This document shows, piece by piece, positions 1,298 through 55,500 of a stretch of 64,000 bases of DNA; the stretch's first letter is position 1; every line of letters begins with the position of its first letter. The stretch is from Gyrodactylus bullatarudis (taxonomy: Eukaryota; Platyhelminthes; Monogenea; Gyrodactylidea; Gyrodactylidae): the NCBI GenBank assembly GCA_012064415.1, contig SSNU01000208.1, positions 711,725-775,724 of the forward strand, in the 5' to 3' direction. The notes below the pieces were generated by a model. That model was not told the DNA's origin. It was given only the letters and a program-made list of their open reading frames with translations, and ran no database searches. The translations under genes were made by a program, and so were the position numbers.

Positions 1298-4200
1298 ATG
1301 AACTACGCTGCTCCAATAGAATTCAGAGGCCTTAACGAAAAGGCAAGAAATTATGCCGGATTAAATGACTGTGTTGTCCTAGATATTGGAGGATCATTAG
1401 CCAAGTTAGCCTATGTTGTAAAATACTCACACACTATTCATATACCCAAAGCAAATGATGAAATAAACCGAAAATTTCATGCATTTGATTATCAAGAGGC
1501 TGAGAAGGAAGGATTCAGAATTTGCTTTGTTAAATTTGAGACTAGCTACATCCAGGATTGTATTAAATTCATTAAGAACAATATCTTCAATAATCAGACT
1601 AATTATGTGAAGAAAACTTTGAAAGTAACAGGCGGAGGAGCCTATCGATTTGTCAATATTATCGAAGAAGGACTCAATGTAGAAATAGAAAAATTAGATG
1701 AAATAAACTGTATTGTTAAAGGAGCTGAGTTTCTTCTCGCCAACATTCCTGATGAAGCGTTCACTTATAATAAAAAAATGAATCCAGCAAAGTGTTTTGA
1801 GGTCTCCTTCGTTCAGCCATATCCCTTCCTTTTGGTAAATATTGGTTCCGGTGTGAGTATTATCAAAGTTGATGGACCAAATTCATACCAAAGAGTGGGA
1901 GGAACTTCCATTGGCGGTGGTACATTCTGGGGCTTAGCCAGTCTACTGACTAATGGCAAGTACAACTTTGATGAAATGTTGAATCTAACCAAGGATGGAG
2001 ATCACAGAAACGTTGATATGCTCGTTAAGGATATTTACGGACAAGGCTATGATAAACTAGGCTTACCTGGTGACGTCATTGCCAGTTCATTTGGATTAAC
2101 TGCTAGGAATCCAGATTCACCCAAGACAGACGCTGATGTTCTTAAATCATTGTTAATTACAGTTTCAAAGTATGTTAAATTTGGTCTTATTCGCTAGCAA
2201 CATTGGCCAATTGTCTTATCTGTATGCGAAGATTCATAATTTGACCCGAATTATCTTTGGAGGCTTCTTCATTAGAAACAATCCGATTACAATGGATGTG
2301 AGTTTTCTAACTTGGTCTAAAACAGGATATATCAAGATTTTCTAGTAATTTGGACACTTGGGTAGAATGCTTTCGGTGTAAATGCTAGTAAAAACAGAGT
2401 TTAGTTCATCAGTATTATTATTATTACATTGGAAATGCCACTACCGGGATTGGAACGCTTGGTTTATTCTGTAGTTCTAGGATGGATCTTTAGGAAATTT
2501 ATTGCCGTATATGATCCTGGAATATAGTTGATAACAAGTCATCAATAAAAACTTGTTGATGATAAGAAAAAAAGACCATGGATTTCGTAGATTTGATCAT
2601 TATTAGCCTTTATAATTATATATCTTTGGCCTTTACGGGTTAATCTAAAGCTATGTTTTAATAAACCAATTCTGGGATTATTTAACCTGCGAGATAGATG
2701 TTATATATATGGATGGGAGTGATACTCTCTTCGGGACAAAGTAGTTAAAACCTTTGGAAAACCGGGTTTATTTGTTGAGACTATGACTCAAATTTGAAAG
2801 TTTTTATATGAAACTGAAATTGGGGCAAGATTATCGACTATTTTTAAAACAGTAAATGGCCTATTGCTCTATATATATTTCATGTATAATAAAGATAAAT
2901 TAATTCATCTACAGAAAATCTCTTATGGTGTTAACTTTTGGTCACAAGGGGAAATGAAAGCCTTCTTCCTACGCCATGAGGGTTATCTAGGAGCCATTGG
3001 TGCATTCACCAAATGCCTGAGGGAATTCTCTCCAAATCTAGCCAATAGTTCGTGGGATGAACATTATCGTATCATTGAGCAGAATGACACATGCGACGAA
3101 GGTAGCTCAGATATAAGAAGCGACATTATCAAATCAAAGTCAATGGATGATTCATTCAATGCATCTCTCACACAAAATGATCAACATCAAAGTGTTTTGA
3201 TTAGCCAGAGAAAATTCTCCTTCAACGACTTGAAGAATATTGAATTTCTTGAATTTGAGTCGAATCTGGACTCATCATTGGTTACATTTCCACTGCTTGC
3301 TGAGCCAACCATGTATCGACCGGATACCCTAGAAATATCCCATGACATTGAGGCCAGAAATTATTGGCTAGACTCTGTTCAGGTACATTTTATTCATGTT
3401 TCCATTTAAATTTTCATTCAATATCTTTATTAATGAGATTTTTCTATTCTATCTGAACTTTAAGGGTTTAACGAGAGAATTTTACATGAAAATTTTCATC
3501 TATCGAAAAAACATAATAATTTTGAATTGAAATTTCCTGATATCTTGACCAAAACATAATTTGCTTGTTTTCAGGTTGAATTAGAATTTAAAATTATGCC
3601 AAACTCATTATTTTCAATGCAAAATACAATCAATTCTAACCAGAGTTCTATACACTTGAAATCTATTGGAACCTATTCTTTCTTAATTTTCATGAACTAA
3701 AATGTGAAAAGAATTAAACAGAATTAGAATTGAACAGAGGTCTCTGAAAAAGAGCAATTGTGAATGGTCGAAAATAAGATGAAAACCAAGATACATTTTT
3801 TCCTCTTCTAATTAGTTATAACTTATAACTGATTGGCCAACTATTCATGAAAGTAAAACATTTTGTGAATACGCCCGGAGATGGAATTATTGTTAGAAGA
3901 AGAAATCGTATGATTTACTTTATTCATCTGGCAACTAAATTTCGTGACCTAGTTCATTTTCAATTAATGATCTTACACAGTGTGATATATTCGAATATAT
4001 TCTTTCATGATTTGTAAAATATTATCTTGAATGAATTCTTAACTAATATCATTTTGAAGAATTACCACTGATGATGCTTCAAGAAATGTACATTTGGTTT
4101 TAATATATCTTTTTTAAATTTTCTAAAATATTCGAATAGTTATTTAGCTTATTTTTAGTTTTTCTGTAAATACTGAATATCATTGATTATGCACTTTATA

Positions 4201-13867: not shown

Positions 13868-16800
13868 TTACACCCATGATGTCCAACCTTCATACATTTG
13901 AGAGAGAATCTTTGGATCTGTAGCCTCCTTGACGAGCTCTTCTGCTGTGTTTTCGTTCTTTTCTAGTTTTGTGGAAATTCCACTGAGAATTGAATTCAGC
14001 TCTTCTATTTGGCGATAATCGGTACTTTCAGTGTAGCATAGCGGAATCTATAGTTTTGAGTAAAAAAAATGTGAAAGAAGCTAGAAACAAAATATTGACC
14101 AATGAAATCATTGTTAATACACATGCTGACGTTGACCAATCAGAGAATTGTTAGAATTAGTTATCAAAAATTTAGTACTCTATAGTGCCAATTTGGTTCC
14201 TGTTATTTCCTAATTATATCAAACATTGTAAAGACTTTATAAAATAACTCACAATGGGAATGTTTATTATTTCAGTAATCCGTTTGAGTGATTCGGCAAT
14301 TTTACTCTTGAGATTATCATTTAGAATTGAACCAGAATTGATGACAACCTGAACACCATTAACGATGGGTAACATAATCTCAATGATGTAGTGTTTTGTT
14401 ATAATCTCAGATATGCTGAGTGCATCATCGGATTCTGTGTCGCCAGTCGAGTGTAGCAGGATGTTTTCAATTCTCTGGACAATTGAATTATAGGTGGATG
14501 CAATGCCGTAATTTGCAAAATGAAAGCGTTGAGTCAAGTTACTCGATGTGAGATCGAATATTTTCTTGGAGTTTAGTCTTTCATAGACTGCTTTCAGGCA
14601 AGTTCCCAACTTTTTCACAATCCTATTGTCAGCTCTTTGATAGTGGGTCTTCTCAAGGATCTCTTCAAGACTGGAAGCTTTGCGTATAATCTCAACGATA
14701 TTGACAAGTTGTCTTTCTGGGGTATGACCAAATTCTTGATGGGTTTCCTCATGATAATAAAAGTGCTTCAACATTTCCTGGACACTGAGTAGCTTCTTGA
14801 GTTGAATTTGTTTCGAAATTAAATTGGCCTTGACTGATTCGTATCTGGCTTGGAACATGAACAAATTGTATTGAGAGAGAGCCAATTCAATATAGCTCAA
14901 AGACATGAAGCCGTTCTCAACAAAGAGGTCCGTCCCCCTGTAGGCATAGTCGTTGAGGAAGGTCTGAAACTCCATAAGCAAATATAAATGATTGTTTTGG
15001 GCGTATTTGAAAAAGTCCAACATTAAAACGAGAATGAACCGAGATATAAGGGCTGTGTTCTTCATGAACACTCCAATGAAACCGTCAAACATGTCCGATA
15101 CATTGACTGATATCCATGATGTCTCAGGGTCGACTTGTTTGAAATGCTCCACAGAAATCTTTTTGGTATCATAAAGATTCCTCTCACCTTCGATGAATAA
15201 CAGGACAGAGTTAATTACTGACAGAAGACCGTTACGGTAGATTTCAATGGACCAATCACAAATAGATTCAGGCCTGAGTATATCGTTCAGATCGCCAAGT
15301 TGAACTTTTGCCTGATACAAGGGCTCCAATAAAAGATTGAGGATTCCACAATTCTGGCGGAAGAATTCATTATTCAGGTTGAGTACTTTAACATTTTTAG
15401 AGAGACTGGAAGTGAGCCTTTTTGAGGCGGACTTGAAGGTGTCTCCGATTTTGGTGAAAATGTCGACAAATGAATCAGAAGCCTTAGTCATTGATCCAAT
15501 GTCGGAAATTTTGATCTGGTCCGGATTCAGGAAGGTAACAGAGTCCCTGAGAATGGCCAGAAATTCAATATTACCCTTTGTTGGCGTGCAAACGTCTAAT
15601 AGGACTGGAAGATGGTTATCAAAGATTTCTTCGCGTAAATTAAAGAGGGTCTCGATAATTTCAAATGTCACATTGCTCTGACGGAAGAAATCCCGAGACT
15701 CCACAGGCAATGTCAGCTGGAGAAACTTTTGCATGTAATAAATCTGAATAAGGTTGTTACGCGAATGAAGGCAGAGGTTTTGCTCATTTTCCATGGCGAA
15801 AATTTCGAATATTTTCACAATGAAATTCATTATAATCATATATAGATAGGTTTCAAGGTTTGTATTAATCTTCATTGAGAAGACCTCTTCATTGTCGAGA
15901 ATGAAATCCTCTGCAGATGCTGATAACTGGCGATAGTTGACGTCGATCAGTTGTATATCAGAGTTGATATAGTCACAAATGGTCTTTATCACTTGGAATA
16001 TGTTATCTGCAGTCTTTGGATCAAAGGTTTCAATGAGCGTTGTGTCTGTCTCCCTGTCTAGAGTGTTAAAAATATCCTTGAGGAAAAGATTGATTGAATT
16101 ATTTTCAAGGAATATCTGGTAATGTTGGCTAATGGGAATTGGATCATATAGAGTGATATTTTCAAGATATTCTCTTGCATAATTGGCCAGGACTCGAATA
16201 TGACTACGTTGGTAGAGGGAGTCGAGAATGGAGTTGTTTGTTTCATCTTTTTTGGAAAACTTTTCAAATGTGTAAATGAGTTTGGTTAGCTCAAGGTAGG
16301 GTGAAGTCTCGGATAATAGGTCAATGGCAAAAGGAATAAAGAACCTCTCATGGGCATCCGTCTGGTAGTTGGTCTGTGTGTAGAAATCCTCAAGGTATTT
16401 GCCGAACTAATAAAATTAAAGTAGAGGTGAAATCAGAGATAGAGAACAATAAAAATTTTTGGATTCTGACGAAAATCTTAATTCTGGATCAAGCTTCAGA
16501 ATTTATACTTTTCCATTAGTTTTTACAAGAGAATTTGGTATCAAAATATGTAAAATAAGATTTGGAACGGTAATAATTATCGGATTTTATCAAGAATATT
16601 ATATTTGAGTCTGAACTCGAATATTTTAAAATAAGATTATTACCAAAAATATTGCTTCAAAAAAAATTTTATAGTCTAAAGAGTTTTAAAATCTAAAATT
16701 CTGTTTTTTGTGGAAGTAAAAAGGGTAGTGTAGAATCTAACAATAATATTCTTGATGAGGTTCGACAATATTATCGTACAAATGACTTTTAATATCATCA

Positions 16801-19800
16801 GTCAGTTGTGAAAACGTTGAGAGCATTTAAATAAATAAGAAAGGATGCCGAGAAAATTTTGAGGAATAAGCGCTTTATTTCAGGCATACTCTTCAGCCTC
16901 TAACATGCCAAATATATAGTAAAAACGAAGAAAAAATATATAAGTAAATCTGATTGGCTCTCTTGTTGATCAGGGTTGGAGGGCATTTGCATTGTTTGTC
17001 GAGTTATCTCAATGTCATAATTGTTAGGCTTTTTAGAGGTGATTGACTATACCCACCCTATGTGTCCCACCCTATATTTGGCATGTAAGAGGCTGAAGAG
17101 TATGCCTGAAATAAAGCGCTTGTTCCTCAAAATTTTCTCGGCCTCCTTTCTTATTTATTTTTACATATGATGTTTTAATGAACCAGAATTTTTGTCCAAA
17201 TCCAAGTCTTAAATTTGTACTGCACTGTGGAAGCATGTAAGGGACAACTAACCTGATATGATTCAATGCATTGTAGGCCGTCTTGCTTTTGTTTCATATG
17301 GATGGGTTCATGCATAATTCGTTGGAGGATGATTTTGAGGGATTTGGAATTGTCCCAGTTAATATTGAGGCATTCCTTGAGGCGTTTGATGAAGGCGGTC
17401 AGGTTGCCGAATGGTGCCAATGTCCTCTCGATAACATTAGTTAGTCTAAAGGGTACATTCTCAGGGATGCTCATTTTCTTTCCCATTTCATAGGCAATGC
17501 TAAAGTCGATGTGGATCATTTCCCCTGTCATTAGATTAATGAGGACGTTGTCCAAATGACGATCCCCAAGGCCGACAATATAGCCAGATGTTGAGGTGCT
17601 GGCGGTGGAATGAGAAAATCTCTGGAATATCGACCACCAGTGTGCATTGGACTGGGCATTGGCCCAGAGTTCATTAATTAGGAGACGTTTGTTAGTACTC
17701 TCCTTGAGCTCTTCATGAATGGTGAGGAGTTGTTTCTTGGAGAGTTGTTGACGAAAGGTACGGAAATCGTTGTTAATATTTGTCATGTTAATCTTGCAGT
17801 TGTTCTCTGTCAAGTGTTTCTTGGCGAACATGAAGAAGATCTTGACAGAATTGAAATCTTTGGCCTGCTCCGGGTGATTCTTGGTAAGGTATTTGGCAAA
17901 CGACTTTCGATATATGGACAAAAGTGATGTGGCACCTTTTACTATACGAATGAGGGAGGAGAATCTGCCCATTCGGATAATGTTATAGGTTGTCATTGAG
18001 TAGAGGGGATTCAGTTTACTGTAGAAGAGGTTTGAGAAGTCAAAACTTCTCATGATGCTAACATCAATAATGGACTGATCAAAGCTCTTCAACAGATACG
18101 AGTAACAATGGCCGTTTTCACACTAAAAAAGTAATATAAATGAAGAAATAATGAGAAATAATTTTAGTCAATAAGCAAGAGAGTCTCAGGAATAGTAGAA
18201 TCAAATATCAGACATAGAGTTTTATGAAAATTGTAATGATATGTTCTATTCGAAGATGTATAAGGCAATTTGGTACCCAATCTTCGAATAGAACATATCA
18301 TTCCACTACTCTGTCTGATATTTCATTCTACTATATTCCTGTGTCAGTATATAATTAGATATAGAAGAAGGCTTACAGTGAAAGTGATCAGTTTTGGCTT
18401 TGTTTTTGATGAAATTACAGATATCTTCTTATGGGCTGATTGAAACTTTAATAGGGGATCTGAGTTATTGCCAGGTAGGTATAAATGGGTGAATTGATAA
18501 TTCTCCATGACGTGGGAATAATCACATAGGAAATTATCGACAGTTTTCTTCCTCATCAGGTCACTTTCGATCCAGGAGAGATTGTAAAAGTCTTTCTTGA
18601 ATCTCATCAACTTTTCAAAGATGGAACTTATTTCAAAGTTCTCAAGGTTCCCTTCGAATTGATTGTAAAACTCTTCTAGGTTATCCCTGAGACATAACTT
18701 TGTTCTGGTCCATTCAGTAAAGGTGACATCAAAGGTTGATGTTTGCGGCTTCTTTTGTATGATTTTGTCGAGAAATTCAATAGAGTTCAACAAGACTCTC
18801 TTGACATAAACCTTGATGTAATGATCAAAGTTTTCTTTCAACTCAGAATTGGACAGCTTCCCATTCGGACGAAAGAGTTTATTGTAATAATTAAAGTTGT
18901 TCTCCAAGTTGCTGAGAACCATTTCAAAATGTTTCATGATCAATTGTTCGTTGGTAATGTAGAGATATTTAAGTTCACGCAGGAATAGGTTTGTATCATA
19001 GACGATGCTCGATATTTGATTTATGTCCTGGGAGTTTTTTGTTGAGTTTAGGGTGAACTTTCGAAAGATCATCCTGGCTCGTTTGCTATAGTCCTTCATA
19101 CTGCATAAAGGATAGAGGATGTGGTTGACAAAGGTCTTGAGGAAAACGGCTCCTTCCCCTATCTTTGAGGACATTTGATAGGCGAGTATTTCGAGGAATT
19201 CCCCAATACGTATGGCACAATGGTCAGAATTGAGCCTGGCAAAGATCTCCGATAGGGTGTAGGCCCAAGAGGTGAAAGCATTCGTTGAGTCTATCTGGAA
19301 TATGCAATTAGATAGATGAATTGCTGTATGATTATTTGTCAAGAGGTCCAAGAGTTTTAGACAGGCTGTACGTGATTCGAGAGTGTTCTCATTTGGGCCA
19401 ATAAAGCTGAGATATTTGGTGAAGGAGTTTTCTGTATTCTTTGTAAACTTTGTTACCTTGGCATAAATCTCTTCGACAAGGTCTATTGACGTGGACAAGA
19501 GATATTCATGTAGCTGATCATAGCTCATTGTGTAAAAGACGCGTTGGTGGATAAAGTCGAACAAGTGGGCAGAGACTAGAGTCTGCTTTGAATCGGGCCG
19601 GGTGAAGTCGGTGAAAATCCGTTCGGTTAACTCATCATGGTTGATATTGAGGAAGTCGGACATTTTCTTCAATACTCTGGATTCCTCAAACATATTTTGA
19701 TCTATTTTGTTGAGTTCTCTTTCAAGTATGTTGAAGGACCATTGGCCATAAGTGTACCAGAAATTGGAAGATTTATTAATGCTGAATTTGAGGGATAACT

Positions 19801-33400: not shown

Positions 33401-36400
33401 ACGAGAACAACATGCAAATTCAGCATTTACTCGCAAGAATATCCATAATTGGAGGAAACAAGGAAAAGTATCTACCACCCCTGGAGGTCTGTGACAAGTG
33501 TCCCTTTGACAACTTCATCAACGACTATAAACAGAGCCTGAAATATCTGAGGAAACAAATTCCCTTTTCTTGTCGTCATATGAAGGGTTCAAGTAGTAAA
33601 CCTTTGAAGGAGGAAAATCATCTCAGCTTATTTCCCAGTGAAATAAGTCCACAACTCTGGAAAGAATTCGAGACATCGCCTAGCATCCTCTTCACTTTCC
33701 AAATGACCCAGCATAACTTGAAGGATTTCTTCCTTACAATCATGAAGAGAGTTTATGGTTACAATCATAGGGATGGTGATGTCAACGAGTTGAAATTTAT
33801 CAAAGTTGATAATATCACTAAAATGGCGGCAATCAAATTTGTCAAGTAAGCCTTGTTCTCCTCATAAACTGGTCTCATTGGTCTGGGTTTTATTAGGTTA
33901 CAAGAAAAATAATGTGACTAAATATATGTGACTGTATATATTAGGGTAATGCAACTTTTTACAACTTTATCGGCTATTTACTCATTCTATAAAGAATTAA
34001 ATTTTGAGAATTGAATTTTACTACGATAACTGATAAAATTCACGTTTTTGAGTAATCTGTATGACTTTTCGGATGGGGATTATTCTGATATAGTTATTTG
34101 AAATCCCTTCACTAGATATCCTCATTCTTTTCTGAAAATTTTATGCGTTTTAAAGGATTTTTGGAAAATGGGATTTATCAGTATCAGAACGAAGAAATTT
34201 TTTGATTTAATTTATGGAAATCTTTTTTTCTGTACAGAAGCATCCAACTTGCCAAATCGTCCCAAAAGTTGATCGGAAAAAAATATTTTGTATTACCTTA
34301 ATATTTTTTATGAATTTCAGCATAAACAATCAATGAAAATAAAGTTGGGAATCTATGAAAGAAATCCCGATATTTTCATCAAGAATTCGAATTTGTTAAA
34401 AATTTTTTGGAATCCTACTCATGTTGCCCACTCTAAACATTTGAAGAAAAAATTCTGAAAAAAAATTTTTTTAATGAAAAATATGGTCATTTTTCAAATT
34501 CCCATTTGGCGCAAAAATCCCATTTTTTCGAACTTTGAACTGAAAATTTTTATTGTTTTAAGAGCTGGAGAGTGATCAAAAATAGATTTTCAGGATCAAG
34601 ATTAGATTATAAAGCTGAATAGCACCGTCAAATTATCGACAGTTTCCCCATTCTCGAGAGATTTTGAATTATCGAAATTTCATTGATTTTCAAGTAGTGA
34701 AAATGATCAAAAAAACGAAATTCCGCTCCCAAACGATAATGTGATTATGCATAAGATCAAATTCATTTGAATTGATTTTTTTGTTTAATCCTGATCTTGA
34801 AAAAACTCTTTTGATCAACCTCCAACTATCAAAACAATAAACATTTTCCAGATGAAGTCTGACATTGTCTGGCTAAACTTTGACTACCTACTCTAATGTA
34901 ATATAATGATTTTTGTACAATTGTACATTTGGAACTTTTTCATTGTTTATCAAAACGTCAACATAAGATTTAGATTTTTATTTAACTAAAAAAAATTTTG
35001 TCCACTTTGACTAGTCCCTTTTTATTTTACTTAGCTATGGTATATTTCTCGGATGCTTTGAAGTAAAACACAAGAGACAATATGAAATTGACTTATCAAA
35101 ATTGCTCAAATACTTCTCCAACCTTAATGAGCAATCACCAACAGCATCTCAAAATAATAGTAAGTTATGCATCCAGCCCTATCATGCATGGGCGGATAGG
35201 TAATCGGCTCACCTTGAGAATGTCATTTGAGTGAATCATTTTTTCATTAGGTAGCTACGTCAATTGTTTAATCTGCTGGATCTTCCTCGTAACGATGGGT
35301 GATCAAGCTAGGACATATCAAATCTACAAGGAACTCTATGGTAATGTCAAGGAATTCGAGGCGCTCCATCGAATATTTCAGTTCAAATCATACATTGTGA
35401 GTAAGAAATATCTATAGATATCCTAACCTCGACCAAACCCAACCCTATACCCCTTTATCGAGTTTTGCTGCCAATCTTAAACATTCCAAATGACCCTTGT
35501 GATGAGAATTTTTTTTTCAGTCTGAAGGTAAGAACCTTCAGAATAAGAATATTGGCACCTTGGAGGTCATGGAGAAGATCAAGATAACTATGCAAAGCAA
35601 ATGTACCAGAATATGTAACATACTTAAATTGGCCAACATTCCCGAAGAACAGGTTCGTTCATCTCCATTAATAATGAGCGACTCTTTCATAAGTAAATTA
35701 TAATTTTTGTTATGGGTCTCGGTATAGGTATTGGGTAAGTGAGAAGAGCAGGCATTTTAGACTAGGACTTGGGTAAACCATAATAATTAATGTCGGATAG
35801 ATTTTTTTAAACATTGGTTTTGAGCTGGGTCACCGATGTCATGAGATTTAATGTAGAAAGATGCCAGGGTTTTTTCTCACAAATAAGGCCTTTATTTCGG
35901 ACATACTCATCAGTGTGATACATGCCAAATATATAGGTTTTAAGAATTAAATTATTGGTTGAAATTGTTCTTAAAATTCGATTGGATCATACCTGTTGCA
36001 AGGTATGCAACATTATTTAGTAAAATTGGTCTTTTGGATGTTTTATTGTTTTTGGGGCTAATTATAATTATCTTATAGTAATACAGAATAGAATTACAGT
36101 TGTGCCCCAGTTTTGGTGTATTAGAAATCGCACACCCCAATTTTCCTATGAAAAATAGATTTTTCTCATCATAGATCTACTTGAAAGTAGAACAGATTTT
36201 TTGAAAGATAATTCTTTTGGCCGAAATTTCACAATTTTTTAGCCGAAAATTCTCAATTTTTTAGTTTATGGTCTCAACTTAAAGAGAATTTTCTCTTGAA
36301 TCGATCAGTACCACTGAACCCTATTGAATTCGTCCACTGAGCATAAAAAATCTTGAAAATAAACGTTGATAAAAAAGGCAATGTGTCACCTTTAATAAAA

Positions 36401-39681: not shown

Positions 39682-42600
39682 TTAGGTCTTTTTGTTGGAT
39701 TGTAAAATTGACTCTTGTAAATCTTGTGGAAGCCTACTGATAAGTAAATGTAAATGCTCATCTATTTTCTGTTTATGGGACTCTTTGAAAAAGTACAAAT
39801 AGCCGTCTTCGATTCTAGTCTAAAAAAATTAACAGTCATGTTTTAACAAATGGAGATGAAGAAAATATCTATCTATCCCTTACTCTGAGATTTTTGAAGT
39901 GTATGTAAATATCAATAATCTCTAGTTCACTGCAGCCACTCTCCCTGAGATATTTGCTCATGTCCAATGAGCACACTTTATCTACGTATATTTCGTTAAT
40001 ATCCTTTTGAAGACATTCTTCGGCCCTTGACATCCAATTGGAGAAATGTGATGTTGACCAGAAACGTCTAACGGAGAAGGAAATCGTTTAAAGGTTTTTT
40101 ACAAAAAGTTCAATATTTTTCTCCGAGAAGTCAGGAAAAATATATTTTTCGAATTCCATAATGAAATAAGCCAATAAGCTGTGAATTTTTTTTTAATTTC
40201 GAAAATAAACCAAATTTCCACTTTTTAACCTAGGAATCTACAATTTTTATCGATTTCAAAGATTTGAAGCAGTTAAATGCAGATATTCGAGATCAGGATT
40301 AGACAAAAAATTCGAATTCGGCTGCAGAAATTCGTCATTTTTGAGGGAAATCGGAAAATTTGAATTTATTGATTATCACGAAGGGAAATGATCCAAAATT
40401 TAAAAGCTTAACAGTAGATTCCTTTCTTCCTTCACGGCCCAATTAGAATTCTCTGTCTAATCCTGATCTCGAATATCAGCATTTAACTGGTTCAAATCAT
40501 TGAAATCGATAAAAATGTGGTGTTGAGAGATGTACGGAGACATCGGTTTTAAGCTGAGTTACCGATGCAAAGTTCATTTCAGAGAAGAAGAAAGAGATGC
40601 CACAATTTTCACAAATAAGGGCCTTTATTTCGGGCATACTCATCAGTGTGATACATGCCATATATATAGGGTTATAACAAAAATAGGAAATAAAGATTAC
40701 TGGTTCTTATTTTTCAATTTTGATTGGCTCATACCTGTTACCAGGTTGGAGCATCATAATTTGTAATCATAAGGTTGGATAGAATGTCATGTTCGTTAAT
40801 TGCATTAGCTATACCTACCTTTCAAAGGGGATAAGACATCAACACTAATTCAAAGAAAGATAAATGAAGTCTTTTCCCAAACCTACCCTGAAGGAACCTT
40901 ACGAATGACCTTCCAAACTTCAAAATGTTTACCAACAAGGCAAAAGACACGATTGATAAAACAAAGATAAGCCATGTAGTCTACAAGTTTACTTGCGCTT
41001 GTAAATCCGAGTATATTGGCCAAACCAAAAGACGTCTAGAGGATAGAATCGAAGAGCACCTCTACACTGGCCAAACTGCAGTGAAAGAGCATCTGAGGAC
41101 ATGCAAGGCAGATGTTTCCAACGAAAACTTTGAAATTATCTATAGACCAACCGGAAACAATGTCCACGCACTTAAAGCAGCTGAAGCATACCTTATAAAC
41201 CAACAAAAACCAAACCTTTGCATCCAGAAAACCTTTGCCAAGCCGATTAACCTCCCCAAACCAAGAGAACTAAAGTCCCCGGCATCCCAACCCCCCGCTA
41301 GGAAGAGGAGGAGAGAAGAAGTAGAGACGAACCAACAAATTACCGATTTTTACCAGGCAACACAATAAAAATCTGATAATTCTGTTTTACACCCCTTTAT
41401 TACCAATCCCTATCTACACCCTGACTACTAAAATATAAATAATAAGTACAGTTGATGCAATTAACGAACATGACATTCTATCCAACCTTATGATTACAAA
41501 TTATGATGCTCCAACCTGGTAACAGGTATGAGCCAATCAAAATTGAAAAATAAGAACCAGTAATCTTTATTTCCTATTTTTGTTATAACCCTATATATAT
41601 GGCATGTATCACACTGATGAGTATGCCCGAAATAAAGGCCCTTATTTGTGAAAATTGTGGCATCTCTTTCTTCTTCTCTGAAAAATTTAGTGCATTTTCG
41701 AAATTCAAAAACGGCCTAATTTTGGTCAGATGGGATTTTTTCAGAAAATTTTTTAAAATTTCCAAATCTTATTGGCTTATTTCATAATGGAAAAATTAAT
41801 TTTTTCCTGACTTTCCGGAGAAAAATATTGAGATTTTTGTAAGAAAAATAAATTCTCATCTTCGTGTTAACTACATATTTATATTGAGGCCAGAATATTG
41901 TATACTTTGAGGGTTGTTAGTAACACCGTGTTACACATCATGAGATAAATGAGATCAGACTTTCTTAAACATTACATTCCTTACAACAAAGTTTGAGATC
42001 ATCTAGCTTTTCATAGACAAGAAAAAAATGTCCCAACCCACCCCACTACTTCTCCAATCTTATCGTCAAACGAATCAATAAGAGCTAAGAAATATAAATG
42101 TTTAAAATAAAATAAACAGTATATTATTCCACTGATTGATTTTGCTAAGGAAATACGTAAAAATATTGATACTTTAAGCAAAGAAAAACATCTTATCTTA
42201 CATGAAACTGCATATGTAAATTTTTTCTAAAATTTATCTTGTAATATTTGATGAATTTAGCTAGTTATTTCGAAAGGTAATCCAATTGGAGACTAACTCA
42301 TAGAGTCGTTTTGTATTGCCTTGGAGCCAGGAGTAGTTACTTTTTGCTTTAACCTCGTTAGCTGAATAATATTCGAGAAATTCATGGATCAATACATGTT
42401 TGAACTTTGGAACATCCTAAGAAATGTTAAAATCATATGTCATTGAGAAATTGTTGAATGCTTCCAGGGAAAAGGATTGAAATTAGACTACATCAAAATT
42501 AAAGTTGGAAAATATTAAAACCCTTTCAGTACCGTGGCTACATTTTACCAAAAATAAAAATAAGCTCTAAATTTCTGTTAACTGAAGGCTAATGTTTCTG

Positions 42601-45600
42601 AAAGTTAGTTTATATAATCTTACCAACTTCGACTTTATGATGAACTTTTGAGATTACTTCTAAGTAATTTCTAAGATTATGATCCTAGCGATCGAAAATT
42701 AGAAAATATTACTTTAATTTAAAGTGGTGTTTTGGGCAATCCAAGTATCATGAAACTACAGAAAGTTACTATGATATTAAGCATATATTAAAATATCTAT
42801 AATCTAATTATCTCCGACCATAATTAAACAAGAGTTTAGTTATTATTGATTTAGTTCTGTATCCAAGTGGCTACATTGGTACTATAGGGATAAAAAATTT
42901 GAACACCTTAGAAAAAAATTTTTTTTGCTCTTTAATTATCTAGATATAATTTCGAATTGTATAATTCATATTTCATTATGATGGATTACGATCTAGAGAC
43001 AAGACGTGATTTCACTGGTGTATTAACCTCTACTTTAGTCCTCCTGCCTGACGCAGATTATTCGGAGTTAGAAGAAATGGATTGTGCAGATGATTATGAA
43101 GCAAGTGATAAAGAAGTTGAAAGTGACGAGGACGAAATTCAACTGGAAGATTTTCCTGCATCAGAAGAATGGCAGAAAACTAACAATCTTGATTCGTACA
43201 GAATCGAGTATTTTCCATATCCTACTCAAGGTCTACACGAGTCCAAATTTTTTTTCGAGATTTTTTTTTCGTCTGATATTATCAACAAAATTTTATTGGA
43301 GACAAATAAATATTCTTGCCAAAATAATTCAAGTTTGCCCATTACGTCACAGATGCTGATGAAAACACTTGGCTGTTTCATATATATGGGAATAGTCGAT
43401 AACAAACGAATTCATTTAGCGTGGGACGTTGATGTCGGAATACCAGTCATTCAAAAAAATTTAACACGCAACAATTTCAATACCACCAAAAGGTTTTTAC
43501 ATTTCAATGATAACGAAAAGTTGATTACTAACAGAAATGATTGCAACTATGACAGGCTGTTTAAAATCCGACCCATTTTGGATATATTTAGGAAAAATTG
43601 TCTTGAAATTTATGCTACTAGTGATCAGGCGATTGATGAACTAATTATTCCTTTCAAAGGTAAAATCAGTTTCAAGCAATATCTTCCAAATAAACCAAGG
43701 AAGTGGGGCATCAAAATATTCTCTCGAAACAGCTCAGATGGTATGATGCACGACTTTTTTGTTTACACAGGATCTAAAGTTATTCCGGATTCGAAATTAG
43801 GTCCCTGTAGCCAAAATGTCCAAAAGCTAACACAGACTCTAGATCCTAATCGGAAGTTTTCTCTTTTCTTTGATAATTAGTTCTCAACAATTATTAGTTC
43901 CATATCCAGATATCGTAAAAAATTATAATAAAAACATGGGTAATGTCGAAAAGTTTGATATGCTTATGTCATTTTACCGAAATGAGCATAAAGTTAAAAA
44001 GTGGTATATGAAGGTGTTTCACTGGATTTTAAATGCGTCGCTGGTTAATGGTTGGCTTTTATACTCAAGAGATTACGAGGATCATAATTTGGATCCAAAG
44101 AAAAAGTTGGATTTGATGGAGTTTTCAATGATAGTGGGTAAAAATTATTTGACACAGACACGAAATAACCAAATTGGACAACCAAATAACGAGAACACTA
44201 ACACAGAACACGAAATTTATGAAGTTCCAAGAAATAAAAGAGGAAGATGCTCGATCTGTAGGGCTTTCACCCCTGTCAAGTGTAAAAAATGTGAAAGTTT
44301 TTTTTGTCTTTTGGAAAATAGAAATTGTTTTTCTAAACATACAAGTTAAATAAAAAATGTTAAAAAAAAAATCTTCAAGCTCAAAATTTATGAGAAAAAT
44401 TTTAGTACCCTTCAGTACCAATGTAGCCATATGGAACAGGTCAAAATTATGATCTTGATCGTGAATTTTGACTTTGATTTTTTGACATGTTCATCTATGT
44501 GCCATGCAGATTAAACTGTGCAATTTTCAAAAAAATCGGATGAAATTTATGGAGTTGGTATTGAAAGGGTTAATCTGACTTGGAATCGAGCAAACTAGTT
44601 GCAGAGTTAACGAAGAAGAGTTGAGAATAAAATCAGTGCTTAACTCTTGAATGCATCGGACATGTAGGTATCATGATCACTGATGATTAAATATGAATCT
44701 GATGTAGCTAATTCGTATAGATAGACCAAGTGTATGCTAAATAAAATTTCAGTATGAAATAGCCCGACAACTTTTCACTCGACATCAGATGGTGTTGGTT
44801 TTATAGAAAATATTTCGCTTTTTTCAAATACACATTCAAAACCCCACATTCAAAAATTTGATCAGAAAAAAAATTCGAAAAGAAGGGTTTATTCTTGCTT
44901 GCTTTATATTAGTTACATGTCCCAGAAGACCTACCTTCAAGAGGAGTAGAGATGAAAGGGATAAATTTTTGACAGTTATTACGGACTTAGAAAGATGAGA
45001 TTTAACTCACCCTAAAAGGACTTATATCCTCTGAGCTGGGAAGTAGTAATTTCAAATAATTCTCCTGAAAAGAGAAAAAACAATTATTTATAAATAAGAG
45101 TACTCTATAGAAAGGATAGGACCAACTAGGGGGGAGATTAGTTGTCTTGTTAGTTCATTGAAAAAGTCTCGGATTCTTTCGTAGAGGCAAATCTGAGGGA
45201 TTTTCGACTCGATGAGGGTGTTGAGAAACTTGTTGAAGTTGTTGATTTTCTTCAGGTCAAACTTGTTCAAGGAGTAGAGGCCCATTCGTTTAGGATCTTG
45301 GAATGTCCCCTGTGGCCTTGTTTGGTATTTTGAGAGGTCAATTTCAAAGTTTTCCTTCACCATGATCAAAAGATTTGGCCAATGGCCGAGGGATTTCATA
45401 AAGAATGGATTTGTAACACCAAGGATGATGGGAAAATTCCTGGAATTATGGGAAAAAACATGAGAGGGTTGTATTTTCCCTTAGATTTCTCTCCAGATTT
45501 ACTTGAGCTGTAGAGTTGTATTAGTGAAGTCTCGATAATCTGAATCATGAATTGTAAAAAAGGGACGATATTCACCAGAAAAGTTGAGCGGGGCAATTGA

Positions 45601-48600
45601 ATTGATCAGTAAGTTAACGATGGTACTGCTATCTTTTGGACTGTAGCAGCGGACTAGTAGAGGCTTCATTGAAGATAAAAATAAAGATTTACAATTCATT
45701 GAATGATGATCAATTGGGAGGTTCTCTCTTACCTGACCAGTAATGACAATTTCCCAGAGATTGTGAAGTTGAAAGAGGATAGGTCGTAGCAGTTCTAGTA
45801 GATACTCATCACTTATATGGTCAACATTACCAGTGGATGAGTTTGAGTCGAGTTCATTGTGGTTATTAATGGGCTAGAGGGAAATGTAGTTGGTATTTAT
45901 TTAATTACAAGGAATTCATCGATTATCGATTAGCCAATGAAAAAATGATCAAGAGGTTCACATAACAGATAGAATACTTTATTCACAAATAAGTTTTATT
46001 TTTAAATTATACATGATTATAACTATCGAATAGCTTCTCTTAATTAATTATGTCAAAAATGGAATATTTTTTGTTTTTGTAGGTACATAAGAATAGGTAA
46101 TTTTATTCACTAGATGTACATTTCTTTATGGTTCATCAGTAGTGACACATAAATAATGATAAAAGGTGATGGCTTCAGTAATGATGTAAGGAGACGACTG
46201 GTTAATCTTATCGATCAACATTATGATAATATACAATTGAAAATTGTATTTAAAACTCAAAGATTATTCAGTTTGATTCATAAGGATTTACTAAAACCTG
46301 AAGAAAAGACTCTTTTAATTTACAAATTCCAATGTGACTGTGGAGCTTCTTATATAGGTCGTACAATTAGGAAATTATCAACAAGATCAAATGATCACCT
46401 CAAGAAGGATACAGCTGTGACCAGACACATCAAACAGGAGAATCATGAAGCTTCAATTTCCAATTTCTCAATTTTGTATAAAAATGCGGGTGATGACAGT
46501 ACGGATTTGTGGGTGAAGGAGAAATTCTTCATCAATCACTTTAAGCCAAATCTGTGTGTTCAAAAAAACTACTCTTATAACCTTCAATTACCCTGGCCTA
46601 TGTGAGCTTTTTCACCTTTCTCTTCACTGTTGCTATTTATTGAAGAGTTTTGGTGTTTTTTCAGCTCACATTATATTCTTATATTTTTCAACTTTTACTA
46701 TACTTCTTTCAAAATCTGTAAAATATTATTTTCAATGATTTCTTAACTTTTATCATTATTTTTGTGTCACTACTGATGAACCATTAAGAAATGTACATTT
46801 AGTGAATAAAATTACCTATTTTTATATACCTACAAATATGATTCTAAGCGGATTTTCGGACGTTTTAGATAAATTACGTGAATCATATCATCGCCAAAAA
46901 TTTTTATTTTATTTTTATTTTTTCAATGATTCAAGAATACATTTTGTTAGATATGGATACATAGTTAGATATTAGGGTAATACAAAATTTTATTTTCCCC
47001 GAACAATGCTCCATGCCTCAAACAAAAATTGATGTTTTAACCGAAAAAAAACAAAATAAAAATTTTTCATGTTCATGTGAAAAAAGACTCAATTTTTGAT
47101 ATTGCAAAAATTATTCAATTTTGTCCTTTCTCGTAGTAAAATTCATTGAAAAAATCTTGACGCGTGTTCAAAAATTGTCATTTTCAATCGAGATTTTTTA
47201 ACAGACTCGAAAATGTATTCTTTTATAGGAAAAAATGCATAGTTTTCTATCTTCAAAATGAGATTAAGGCTGGGAAAGTTGAAAAATTTGGCAAACAAAA
47301 GACAACTTTGAAGTTACCAACTAATGGCAATATGAAGCTAGATTATGTGGATCCACTTTCAATAAAAGGAAAGAAAAATGTGGACATTCTGAAATTTTGA
47401 GCTGGTGCCAAATTCTAATTTTTTTGAATTTTGGACACAAAAACTAAGCAAGGAGACCAAATTTACTAAATAGAGTCTGATTATTAATCTCAGAATCGAG
47501 AAGGAGTTGAATACTGCCAAATGATCGAGTAGTTTTTACTTTGAATGCATTGGTTCCATCACTTGAAATAATTAAAAGATGGTTGACTTAGAGTAACAAA
47601 TCACTTAATATTAACCTTATTATCTTATCTATTACTTGTACTTGTATAAATGTTTATTTTTAATGAAAAATTAATTGAATACTTTTCATCATATTACTAT
47701 TACTACTGTTAAATTGATTTTTTTTTCATTTTTTATATTATGTATAGTGAAGTGAAACTCACATAATCGATATTACAAATGATATCATGGCCATGTTTTA
47801 TGTTGCCATGTTTGATGATTTCAAAGTCGATAGAGGTCTCGTCTGTGTCATCACTACTGCCAGTCATGCTGAGGGATTCCAAGTAGTTCGACTGAACTGT
47901 GAATAGTTCAGAGTTGTTGTGTGTTTTCCTCGGGATGAACAAGGTCAAAACAATGCCCACAATGGGTAAAGATAGTGTTTGATTGGTGAACGGCTTCGGC
48001 CATTTACTCATCTCAAGGGCAAATGTCTGTAAGAGAATTTCTCCCGTCTTAAAGTATAACGGCCCAATGATATCAATTGTGCGGATGAATAAATCTTTAA
48101 AGTGGTACGCAGATAATATCACAATTGACTGGAAAGAAAATGAATAATTTTTCTCATGTTTTTTCAATCCAGTTCATTCAGACAAAGGATTTTTATGAAT
48201 GGTCTGCAACTCTCTTCAAAATAGAATTCTCTCTTCACTATTATATATCCGAATAAAATTTACAACTTCCATTAAGATTAATTGCTACTAGCAATTTCAA
48301 ACTATAAGATAGAATCACTTTGACTCCATTATTGAATTAGTTTTATAGAACTATCAAAAAGCAAAAGTCAACTACAAAGCTACTCACTGGCCATGTTCAC
48401 TTAAAATTCTACTCGTGAATCTACTTTCAAGTAGGATTTTTTAAACTCATTGATTATTAACTCTCGACTAGATGTCTATCAAACACATAACCACATACGA
48501 CATTATTCCTCAGAATATGTATATCAGTCAAGAGACCTCATTACTTTCTCGATCTTTTCTCATATATCTTAATGTATAAATAAAACTATTGCGTTTATAA

Positions 48601-53639: not shown

Positions 53640-55500
53640 GCTTAACTTAAACTGAACTTATGGGCTCATTTTATCATTGAATTCAGCGTATTCTGAAAAT
53701 TTCACAATATCAGCCATGTCTCTTGAATAAAATTTCTCTGGACCTTCAAGAGTTAGCAAATATTTCAATATGAAAGCATTCAATAGGAAATAAATAGTTG
53801 GTAAAAGTATATTTAGATTTATGGCACTATAGCTTTTCGAAAAATCAATTATTGATGACTTCAAGCCCCAACCGTCGAAAGCTTGGAAGAACCTCAAATA
53901 TTTAGCAAACAAGTCTGAATCTGCTTCAAATCTATCAACTACTTCTGCAGATTCCTTGAACAAATTTTTTCAATCAGTTTTTTTTCCACTCAGTTAGAAG
54001 TTAAATTCCTCTCAACAAATTCAGCGATTCCTCCTATCATCTCGGCTGATATGCTAGTTGACCTACTCCTTGACTCAAAATCAAAGAAACGTAAAGATAC
54101 TTTCTTTAACTCAAATGAGCTCCTTCTCTCGTTACCAACCTGTTTTTTTGTGAATCTCGCCATTTTCCTGACCCAAGCCATTTCAATTAATCTAATTCCC
54201 TGTGAATGGACTTGCATTAAAATAACACCAATACCCAAAATATTTAATCCTCAAGCTGAACCAGATTATCGACCTATCTCCAATCTACCTATATTTCTCA
54301 GCCTGGTCGACTCAATATCTCTCCACCTACTTTCGCCATATATCAGAATTGAATCCATGGATCCCTCACAGCACGGTTTTGTGAAGGGCCGAAGCACCTC
54401 TACCAATTTAGTCTCCTTTTTCAACAAAGTTGATGAGCTAAGACATAGAATTGTTATTTTCCTTGAAATCTCAAAAGCATTTGACAAGCTTCTTTTCAAT
54501 ATTATCCAAAATTCCCTTAGGGACAATGAAGTCAACCCTTTTCCTAATAAATTGGATTAGAAATTTTCTTTCATCCAGATCCCAGGAAGTACATTTCAAT
54601 GGCCAAATCTCTAGTTCCACCAAAATCACCTCATGAGTTCCCCAAGGCTCAAAAATTGGCCCACTGTTATTCAATCTAGTTTTCTCAACCATTAAACGAT
54701 CCTCCTCAGACGTTTTTTACTATAAATATGCCGATGATCTGAAAGTCCTAATCCCAAATTTTTCTAATGAACTTATAGTTAAACCACCTAGAGACTTTAT
54801 TGCTTAAAATCGGACTATCAATGAACCCTACCAAAACAAAATTTATGATTTTGAAGACCGCTAAACCCATAACCGAACTTAATCCTGTTTTTTCTCACTT
54901 GGTTGTTAAAAGAATCAAGGACCTTGGTTTAACCTATGATCAATCACTATCCATAAAATCACATGTGAGTGAGCTTTTGAAGACTTTCCTTATCACAAGA
55001 TTCATTTCCTCCTCTCAGCTCAAACTCAAGATGTATAAAAGTTTCATTTTATCAAAATTTGATTATTGTGCTTCCCTTCTCGGAATCACCATTGAATCCA
55101 CAAAAAAGAACGAATTCAATACCGATTTCTCGCCTCCTGTTATGGGCCCCTAAGTTATAAACAATGTCTCAAATTAACATCTTTATACCCTATCTGGCTC
55201 AGGAGGCTCTCAAGCTCGCTGATTCTCTATAACACTTATAAGCCACAAGATGATTCACCAACTTATAATACCAGAAACTCTAGAAAATATTCAATTCTCC
55301 TTGGCAACATCCTCCCTCTCCAAGCCAGATTCAAACTTGTACTTAAAAACATCCCCGTCACATCCATCAAATCCACATGTGCTTTCCTCCAAAGACTCAT
55401 TCCAGAGGATGGAGACCTGTTCAGAAACTATTTTCCTTAATATTGTCTTTTATATGTATATTTTGTAACAGATTAATAAATACATTTCTATTCCAAAAAA
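53640..55500 (+). mobile_element. Degenerate non-LTR (Jockey/CR1-like) LINE, 3' part
   Basis: Plus-strand frames with stops and shifts give, in order: a pre-RT region (AWKNLKYLANKSE, ADSLNKFFQSV), RT blocks (ITPIPKIFNPQAEPDYRPIS, QHGFVKGRSTSTNLVSF, EISKAFDK, VPQGSKIGPLLFN, YYKYADDLKVL) and the thumb/C-terminal part (KDLGLTYDQSLSIKSHV, YKSFILSKFDYC, YNTRNSRKYSILLG). Motif A reads E where Asp is expected, and TGA/TAG stops interrupt the blocks. It ends in an AATAAA-like signal and a short A-run near 55477-55500. Confidence 0.85.

Follow-up and report, generated by a model that had tools for sequence, protein, structure and literature searches.

Penelope-like elements (PLEs) of the monogenean flatworm Gyrodactylus bullatarudis carry predicted hammerhead-type ribozymes in which stem II is almost absent, and in which a linker of 8 nucleotides (nt) pairs with the 5' flank of stem I to form a putative pseudoknot. 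These motifs were analyzed in a 64,000-nt stretch of the genome (contig SSNU01000208.1, forward-strand positions 711,725 to 775,724; hereafter the window) and at related loci across the assembly. The interpretation we favor, with a probability of about 80%, is that they are hammerhead-type RNAs in PLE repeats, with a pseudoknot replacing stem II, and that they probably act as self-cleaving dimers.

All eight window motifs have the same layout, with a CTGANGA core, a linker of exactly 8 nt, GAA, stem III, one nucleotide, and a stem I strand complementary to the 4-5 nt that precede the core. The original prediction, made from the window sequence, had described these eight motifs and we found all of them on the strands it gave; it counted from the low end of each motif, and here we count from the first base of CTGA (4068+, 16896-, 17093+, 35913-, 40646-, 41614+, 46139-, and 46773+). 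The key feature that it overlooked is pairing of the linker with 5-6 nt a short way 5' of stem I, present in a single register in seven of the eight copies. The pairings are GGCAT/ATGCC in five copies (one of them with ATGTC, and thus a G-U pair), TTGAAG/CTTCAA in 4068+, and TTTATG/CATAAA in 46139-, and only in 46773+ is the pairing lost. The features are as follows.

4054..4098 (+), predicted ribozyme: pseudoknot strand TTGAAG 4054-4059, pairing with linker CTTCAA; stem I ACCA 4064-4067/TGGT 4095-4098; core 4068-4074; linker 4075-4082; GAA 4083-4085; stem III ATGTACAT 4086-4093; predicted cleavage after 4094
16861..16909 (-), predicted ribozyme: pseudoknot strand GGCAT 16905-16909; core 16890-16896; linker 16882-16889; stem III 16866-16878; predicted cleavage nucleotide 16865; stem I GAGG/CCTC
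17080..17128 (+), predicted ribozyme, inverted same-family partner of 16861-16909: pseudoknot strand GGCAT 17080-17084; core 17093-17099; linker 17100-17107; stem III 17111-17123
35877..35926 (-), predicted ribozyme: pseudoknot strand GGCAT 35922-35926 with linker ATGTC (one G-U); core 35907-35913; linker 35899-35906; stem I TCACA/TGTGA
40609..40659 (-), predicted ribozyme: pseudoknot strand GGCAT 40655-40659; core 40640-40646; linker 40632-40639; stem III 40615-40628; predicted cleavage nucleotide 40614; stem I TCACA/TGTGA
41601..41651 (+), predicted ribozyme: pseudoknot strand GGCAT 41601-41605; core 41614-41620; linker 41621-41628; stem III 41632-41645; predicted cleavage nucleotide 41646; stem I 3' strand 41647-41651
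46108..46153 (-), predicted ribozyme: pseudoknot strand TTTATG 46148-46153 with linker CATAAA; core 46133-46139; linker 46125-46132; stem III 46114-46121
46759..46804 (+), predicted ribozyme whose pseudoknot has decayed: two U-U mismatches between TTTTTG and CATTAA; core 46773-46779; linker 46780-46787; stem III 46791-46798; stem I 3' strand 46800-46804

Stem III starts with A-U in all eight copies, and position 17 is H (not G). The window holds 11 CTGANGA-N8-GAA strings, nine of which pass a stem test (stem I of at least 4 base pairs [bp] plus two closing stem III pairs), as compared with a mean of 0.05 and a maximum of one in 100 first-order Markov simulations. The ninth passing string (38306+) was set aside as a decoy, having a poor stem III and three of six upstream pairs. 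The linker closing pair of the window motifs is G-C, T-A, or absent, and is G-T in the 16896-/17093+ pair, so that the claim of at most one closing pair holds. Stem III, which had been described as palindromic, is largely self-complementary but not perfectly so in every case: AUAAAGGCCCUUAU contains A-C mismatches, and the 13-nt stem III forms with a bulge. With the core intact, ribozyme function of the 8-nt-linker copies is likely.

Linker length and stem I across the genome

The linker is of nearly constant length throughout the genome. The pattern CTGANGA-N{1,30}-GAAATGTACATNT has 875 matches (437 and 438 on the two strands) and its reversed control has none; stem III ATGTACAT matches with linkers of 1-7 nt number five and those with linkers of 9-38 nt number 20 (19 of them within 30 nt), which by subtraction leaves about 851 of 875 with exactly 8 nt. 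In some of the off-length matches the CTGANGA is a chance one, with a normal copy following downstream. Free variation in linker length, named beforehand as grounds for abandoning the motif, did not occur. Among loci L049-L118, 60 of the 61 motifs with a stem I of at least 4 bp have the 8-nt linker, the remaining one being a normal hammerhead, whose stem II hairpin has 14 nt. Two further patterns, CTGANGA-GANCNNNY-GAAATANA (1,075 matches) and CTGANGA-GTRTGYCY-GAAAT (699 matches), also have reversed controls with no matches, and the three patterns, all with the core sequence built in, together have about 2,650 matches in 77 Mb. The first of these two is a third large group, and the count of three families given originally is too low. 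The motif has no match in viral contigs.

Stem I sequences differ and continue to pair, as had been claimed, and the failure of stem I to covary that had also been named beforehand as a ground for abandonment did not occur: at least four of five pairs form in 44 of 68 distinct copies selected blind to stem I, and in no more than 10 of 68 when the strands are slid. In this count copies with a 13-nt stem III followed by T were read as having 14 nt, which lowers the stem I counts and shifts H17; H17 was therefore recounted with stem III lengths taken from stem I.

Covariation of the linker with the 5' flank of stem I

A further 39 copies were retrieved so as to sample diverse linkers; at least five of six pairs form in the same register in 21 of them, and other sequences pair among them, including TCAAAG/CTTTGA, TAAAAG/CTTTTA, TTAAAG/CTTTAA, CCAGG/CCTGG, and GCCGGT/ACCGGT. 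In the common register, which holds for most families, linker nucleotide k stands opposite base 6+k before the core. Compensated versions are GACAT/ATGTC in L112 and GTCGGT/ACCGAC in L035, the latter shifted one nucleotide nearer to the core. Loci were chosen for linker diversity among the matches listed, with L049-L098 reached through protein matches. L001-L008 are left out of the 39-copy count and of the 61-motif test below, four of them being the same sites as L029, L048, L030, and L031; L001, L006, L007, and L008 have 2, 2, 0, and 6 of 6 pseudoknot pairs, respectively. L017, with a 19-nt linker, is absent from the 47 rows of the pairing count.

For a test blind to the upstream pairing, we took every CTGANGA-N8-GAA with enough flank in fetched loci L009-L138 and the window (146 motifs), and kept the 109 (61 distinct) with a stem I of at least 3 bp and two stem III end pairs. 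Of these 61 distinct motifs, 36 form at least five of six pairs in the common register, compared with at most seven at any of 12 other offsets. The pairs formed total 270 of 366, against 164.5 +/- 10.9 when linkers are shuffled among motifs, and none of 5,000 shuffles reached as high. In a gapless alignment of the same 61 copies, 73.8% of positions are paired (45.0 +/- 2.3 shuffled), the covariation score is 0.696 (0.230 +/- 0.027 shuffled, and no more than 0.291 for slid partners), and 130 cells are changed on both sides (56.8 +/- 6.5 shuffled). The motifs failing the stem test (37 of 146) are an unclean control, since 24 of the 37 still have at least five of six pseudoknot pairs and are mostly decayed copies of the same families. 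Four pattern matches in prokaryote genomes have 3, 3, 4, and 4 of 6 pseudoknot pairs and 3, 0, 1, and 1 of 5 stem I pairs. At the sequence level, we consider the case for a pseudoknot that replaces stem II to be strong.

A genome-wide pattern permitting 16 combinations of two families has 332 matches. Among the 100 of these listed, inspection by eye gave 52 with TTTATG/CATAAA, 44 with TTGAAG/CTTCAA, four with one mismatch, and none crossed, which reflects linkage rather than independent events because only two lineages are involved. Pairing downstream (3') of stem I was rejected as a general feature: downstream complementarity among 59 distinct motifs (3.67) lies within permuted values (mean 3.50, maximum 3.77), whereas upstream complementarity is 4.91 (permuted mean 3.56, maximum 3.98). 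In the GTATGCC family GGCAT is also present 3' of stem I. We note that the GTATGTCC copies in L039 and L112 have GGACTT 3' of stem I where the GTATGCCC copies have GGCATC; this GGACTT may pair with the linker too, although downstream pairing is unsupported overall.

Stem II itself is reduced to a single pair between linker positions 1 and 8 in 45 of the 61 distinct copies (GC 23, GU 14, UA 7, UG 1) and is absent in the other 16. A stem II of two or more base pairs does not occur in the 8-nt-linker copies, and no Watson-Crick pair can close stem II with linkers ACCATAAA (A/A ends), TGCTTTGT, or TGCTTTAT (both U/U ends).

Several observations weigh against a pseudoknotted, self-cleaving RNA. Single window copies taken alone are not significant (linker-shuffle p of 0.02-0.09), and two of five covariation measures fail to discriminate: six pairs show change on both sides (6.0 shuffled), and the 24 further pair types were reached by 15 of 500 shuffles. 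Fewer than five of six pairs form in the common register in 25 of the 61 distinct copies, some of them decayed and some being GA-N-C-NNN-Y copies in a register shifted by one, and L120, L122, L133, and L135 have no good upstream partner. The copies were picked for linker diversity and not at random, and they are related, so that shuffles overstate their independence. A chance-like motif without a stem III (L048) also reaches five of six pairs. A pattern in which R stands opposite Y (GRCAT/ATGYC) has 518 matches genome-wide, but adds little, as the 100 listed comprise 95 G-C, one compensated A-T, and four mismatched A-C by eye. Several of the pseudoknots are weak alone (UUUAUG/CAUAAA, -1.8 kcal/mol; UAAAAG/CUUUUA, -1.5 kcal/mol). 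G is found at H17 in none of 60 copies, which says little because the flanks are poor in G (5 G in 433). Finally, in an Anolis PLE, mutating the hammerhead did not affect insertion in vitro, and none of the reads stops at the cut site, according to the accessible part of that report (PMC11167929).

Precedents and competing explanations

In the engineered minizyme an unpaired linker replaces stem II. The original prediction drew this parallel, and its observation of a near-absent stem II stands, but the linker is not free: in most copies it pairs upstream, and it covaries with its partner, which is not expected of a free linker. A ribozyme with a free 8-nt linker in place of stem II, stable through dimer formation alone, would accommodate the 16 copies without a closing pair and those without a good upstream partner, and engineered stem II deletions are on record, to judge from a title; given the covariation, we regard it as very improbable.

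The nearest precedent for the mechanism, as far as the accessible text goes, is a metagenomic type II hammerhead (Perreault et al. 2011; PMC3088659), with which the motifs share the hammerhead core, a minimal stem II, and a pseudoknot between the stem I and stem II sides. In that portion of the paper a stem I-II pseudoknot is predicted in about 40% of hammerheads, stem II often has two pairs, and it has a single pair in one case, an active ribozyme. Shortening the 6-bp pseudoknot of this ribozyme by two or four nucleotides reduced the rate about 20-fold or more than 100-fold, a compensatory change rescued it, and an extra stem II pair was harmful. The differences, on the same text, are that the published ribozyme is a lone 1-bp case of type II topology (stem II open), whereas here there are large PLE families of type I topology with a stem II of 0-1 bp, and the pseudoknot strand of the window families lies 5' of stem I.

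A plain hairpin of upstream strand and linker around the core, competing with the active fold as a timed or regulatory off-state or as a protein-binding site, would give identical covariation, and the Anolis PLE protein appears to assist its ribozyme (PMC11167929, accessible part). However, none of stem I, core, and stem III is occupied by the pairing, which lies where hammerheads usually make their stem I-loop II contact, the common register suggests a geometric constraint, and both the frequency of predicted pseudoknots and the rate cost of a four-nucleotide shortening (PMC3088659, as above) speak for a structural role. We consider a competing hairpin unlikely.

Rfam searches recovered no hammerhead in the window, even at E <= 5, and reported none of the 8-nt-linker copies in six loci up to E 1. 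They did identify a canonical type I hammerhead in L055 (2439-2483, minus strand; Hammerhead_1, 36.8 bits, cut-off 34), which has a 4-bp stem II and a palindromic stem III, ACGCGCGT. Canonical type I hammerheads (RF00163) share the core, stem I, and stem III with the motifs described here, and differ in that 4-bp stem II, which is near-absent here. A normal stem II pattern (GTCC-N6-GGAC) has 252 matches genome-wide, so both hammerhead designs coexist in the same genome; these matches possibly belong to a retrozyme or another PLE family.

Reviews (PMC6155905, PMC7761336, PMC6466107), in their accessible parts, describe PLE hammerheads as minimal forms without helix III and/or tertiary contacts that act as dimers. 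The small PLE hammerheads they cover (Cervera and de la Pena 2014; Lunse et al. 2017) share with our motifs the location in PLE terminal repeats, type I topology, and a weak stem III, but there it is helix III or the loop-loop contacts that are said to be missing, whereas here stem II is missing and the contact is a helix of 5-6 bp; the covarying pseudoknot does not fit an absence of stem I-II tertiary contact. Axolotl retrozyme hammerheads, as described in the accessible part of PMC7229834, likewise have a very short stem III, with a palindromic tetraloop in one family, and amphibian motifs cleave efficiently as dimers; they differ in having helix II (with a basal U-U mismatch in one family) and loop 1-loop 2 contacts, and they lie in tandem repeats of 330-350 bp rather than in PLEs. 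Our literature search, whose reach did not extend to Cervera and de la Pena (2014) or Lunse et al. (2017), found no type I PLE hammerheads with a stem II of 0-1 bp and a pseudoknot.

Stem III as a possible dimer interface

The suggestion that a self-complementary stem III could serve as a dimer interface gains from the self-complementarity of most types. The inner tetramer is self-complementary in nine of ten stem III types seen at least twice (GTAC, GGCC, GATC, GCGC, ACGT, ATAT, and AGCT occur) and in 7 of 17 types seen once, a count that is suggestive only, because longer stems offer several tetramers. ViennaRNA predicts that the stem III hairpin is unstable alone in seven of eight types tested, with self-duplex energies of -6.5 to -13.6 kcal/mol. 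A double-hammerhead mode is known for newt, viroid, and PLE ribozymes, as the accessible parts of two reviews state (PMC6155905, PMC6466107); the properties of stem III are consistent with this mode.

Association with Penelope-like elements

Two ribozyme pairs of the window flank the ends of PLE reading frames, which, with the intact core and stems, agrees with the hammerhead-type architecture and PLE context proposed originally. The relevant features, including tandem ribozymes on other contigs, are as follows.

40577..41683, truncated PLE insertion: 241-nt inverted arms (98%), one ribozyme per arm
40925..41368 (+), truncated copy of a PLE frame, its GIY-YIG endonuclease end: Pfam GIY-YIG at E 4.9e-06 (40892-41368)
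46076..46836, truncated PLE insertion: 90-nt inverted arms (94%), one ribozyme per arm
46162..46605 (+), end of another, divergent PLE frame: itself without a Pfam match
16829..17160, two short ribozyme arms in inverted order: 88 nt long (97%), separated by 156 nt
C243, 224368+ and 227032+, tandem ribozymes: 2,664 nt apart
C27, 378566- and 375890-, tandem ribozymes: 2,676 nt apart
C439, 14832+ and 17665+, tandem ribozymes: 2,833 nt apart

Each frame end has at least 150 matches in its own genome. A longer relative of the 40925-41368 frame (L058) has both reverse transcriptase and GIY-YIG domains, and a longer element identical over 147 amino acids to the 46162-46605 end (L071) has a reverse transcriptase domain upstream. 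A protein search with the GIY-YIG frame end gave no match at E <= 0.001, whereas the best matches of a propionyl-CoA carboxylase beta frame of the host come mostly from invertebrates. In 17 of the 20 best copies the GIY-YIG match is followed, about 225-265 nt to its 3' side, by a ribozyme of the same sense; L057, with a decayed stem I, is among them. The three long-frame elements examined, with open frames of 820, 813, and 859 amino acids, carry ribozymes both before and after the frame in the same sense. The motifs are thus located in PLE terminal repeats.

The three window insertions either are truncated or lack coding sequence, and in each the ribozyme arm recurs in inverted (diverging) order; one ribozyme per strand means that no tandem dimer is possible in cis. 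Such truncated copies, together with decayed pairs in others (the pseudoknot of 46773+, stem I of L057), would suit ribozymes that are inert passengers inherited from once active PLEs. This is improbable, since the three long open frames retain ribozymes at both ends, and ten genomic copies of the 46162-46605 end, that of the window included, are identical over 147 amino acids, which indicates recent spread. Elsewhere in the genome at least 15 diverging ribozyme pairs within 2 kb were seen by eye among 100 matches listed. The inverted pair at 16829-17160 lies between two minus-strand frames (14214-16406 and a PI3/4-kinase frame at 17175-18122), possibly in an intron, and its copy at 16861-16909 has the same sense as these frames.

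Proposed mechanism and implications

Starting from what the DNA displays (core, fixed linker, stem I pairing, covarying pseudoknot, and PLE position), we infer how these RNAs would fold, stack, dimerize, cleave, and be processed to unit length. They would be hammerhead-type self-cleaving RNAs of type I topology in PLE retrotransposon terminal repeats, with stem II cut down to one pair (G-C, G-U, or U-A) or none. Five or six linker nucleotides (3-8, 3-7, or 4-8, by family) would find their partners in a strand whose end lies 6-8 nt before the core on its 5' side, and this pairing would cross stem I. The resulting pseudoknot would substitute for the usual loop II-stem I contact and probably stacks at the place of stem II; with most of the linker paired to the flank of stem I, loop II and stem I would stay in contact through base pairs despite the shrinking of stem II. 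By way of stem III, which is mostly self-complementary and a weak hairpin, two copies probably associate into a double hammerhead in which each core would cut its partner 3' of H17. Two tandem copies around a PLE frame would release a unit RNA of 2.7-2.8 kb.

More tentative, and in our judgment slightly short of an even bet, is the proposal of a natural lineage in which stem II is dispensable, an obligate dimer whose active core would be built by the 5-6 bp pseudoknot and the shared stem III; the same joint proposal, held just as tentatively, has the pseudoknot hairpin presenting the stem I guide strand. If the copies cleave, a natural ribozyme that is heavily amplified has given up stem II in exchange for a pseudoknot, and a reason why such motifs are missed would be that standard covariance models have stem II and cannot hold pseudoknots. 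The reviews' account of PLE hammerheads without tertiary contacts would then be qualified. Applied to animal genomes, the descriptor P6-N8-CUGANGA-N2-P6'-GAA could bring to light ribozymes that have escaped notice, and the range of naturally occurring sequences allows a direct test of what stem II does.

Other features of the window

A near-perfect hairpin lies at 18227-18309, with mir-190 below threshold on both strands (28.3 and 24.6 bits; cut-off 48). A plus-strand frame at 53919-54560 has a reverse transcriptase match barely under the Pfam cut-off (28.1 of 29.6 bits). Between two PLE copies are two plus-strand DDE transposase pieces (42936-43880 and 43843-44349; Pfam DDE_Tnp_1_7), which we take to be of the piggyBac type.

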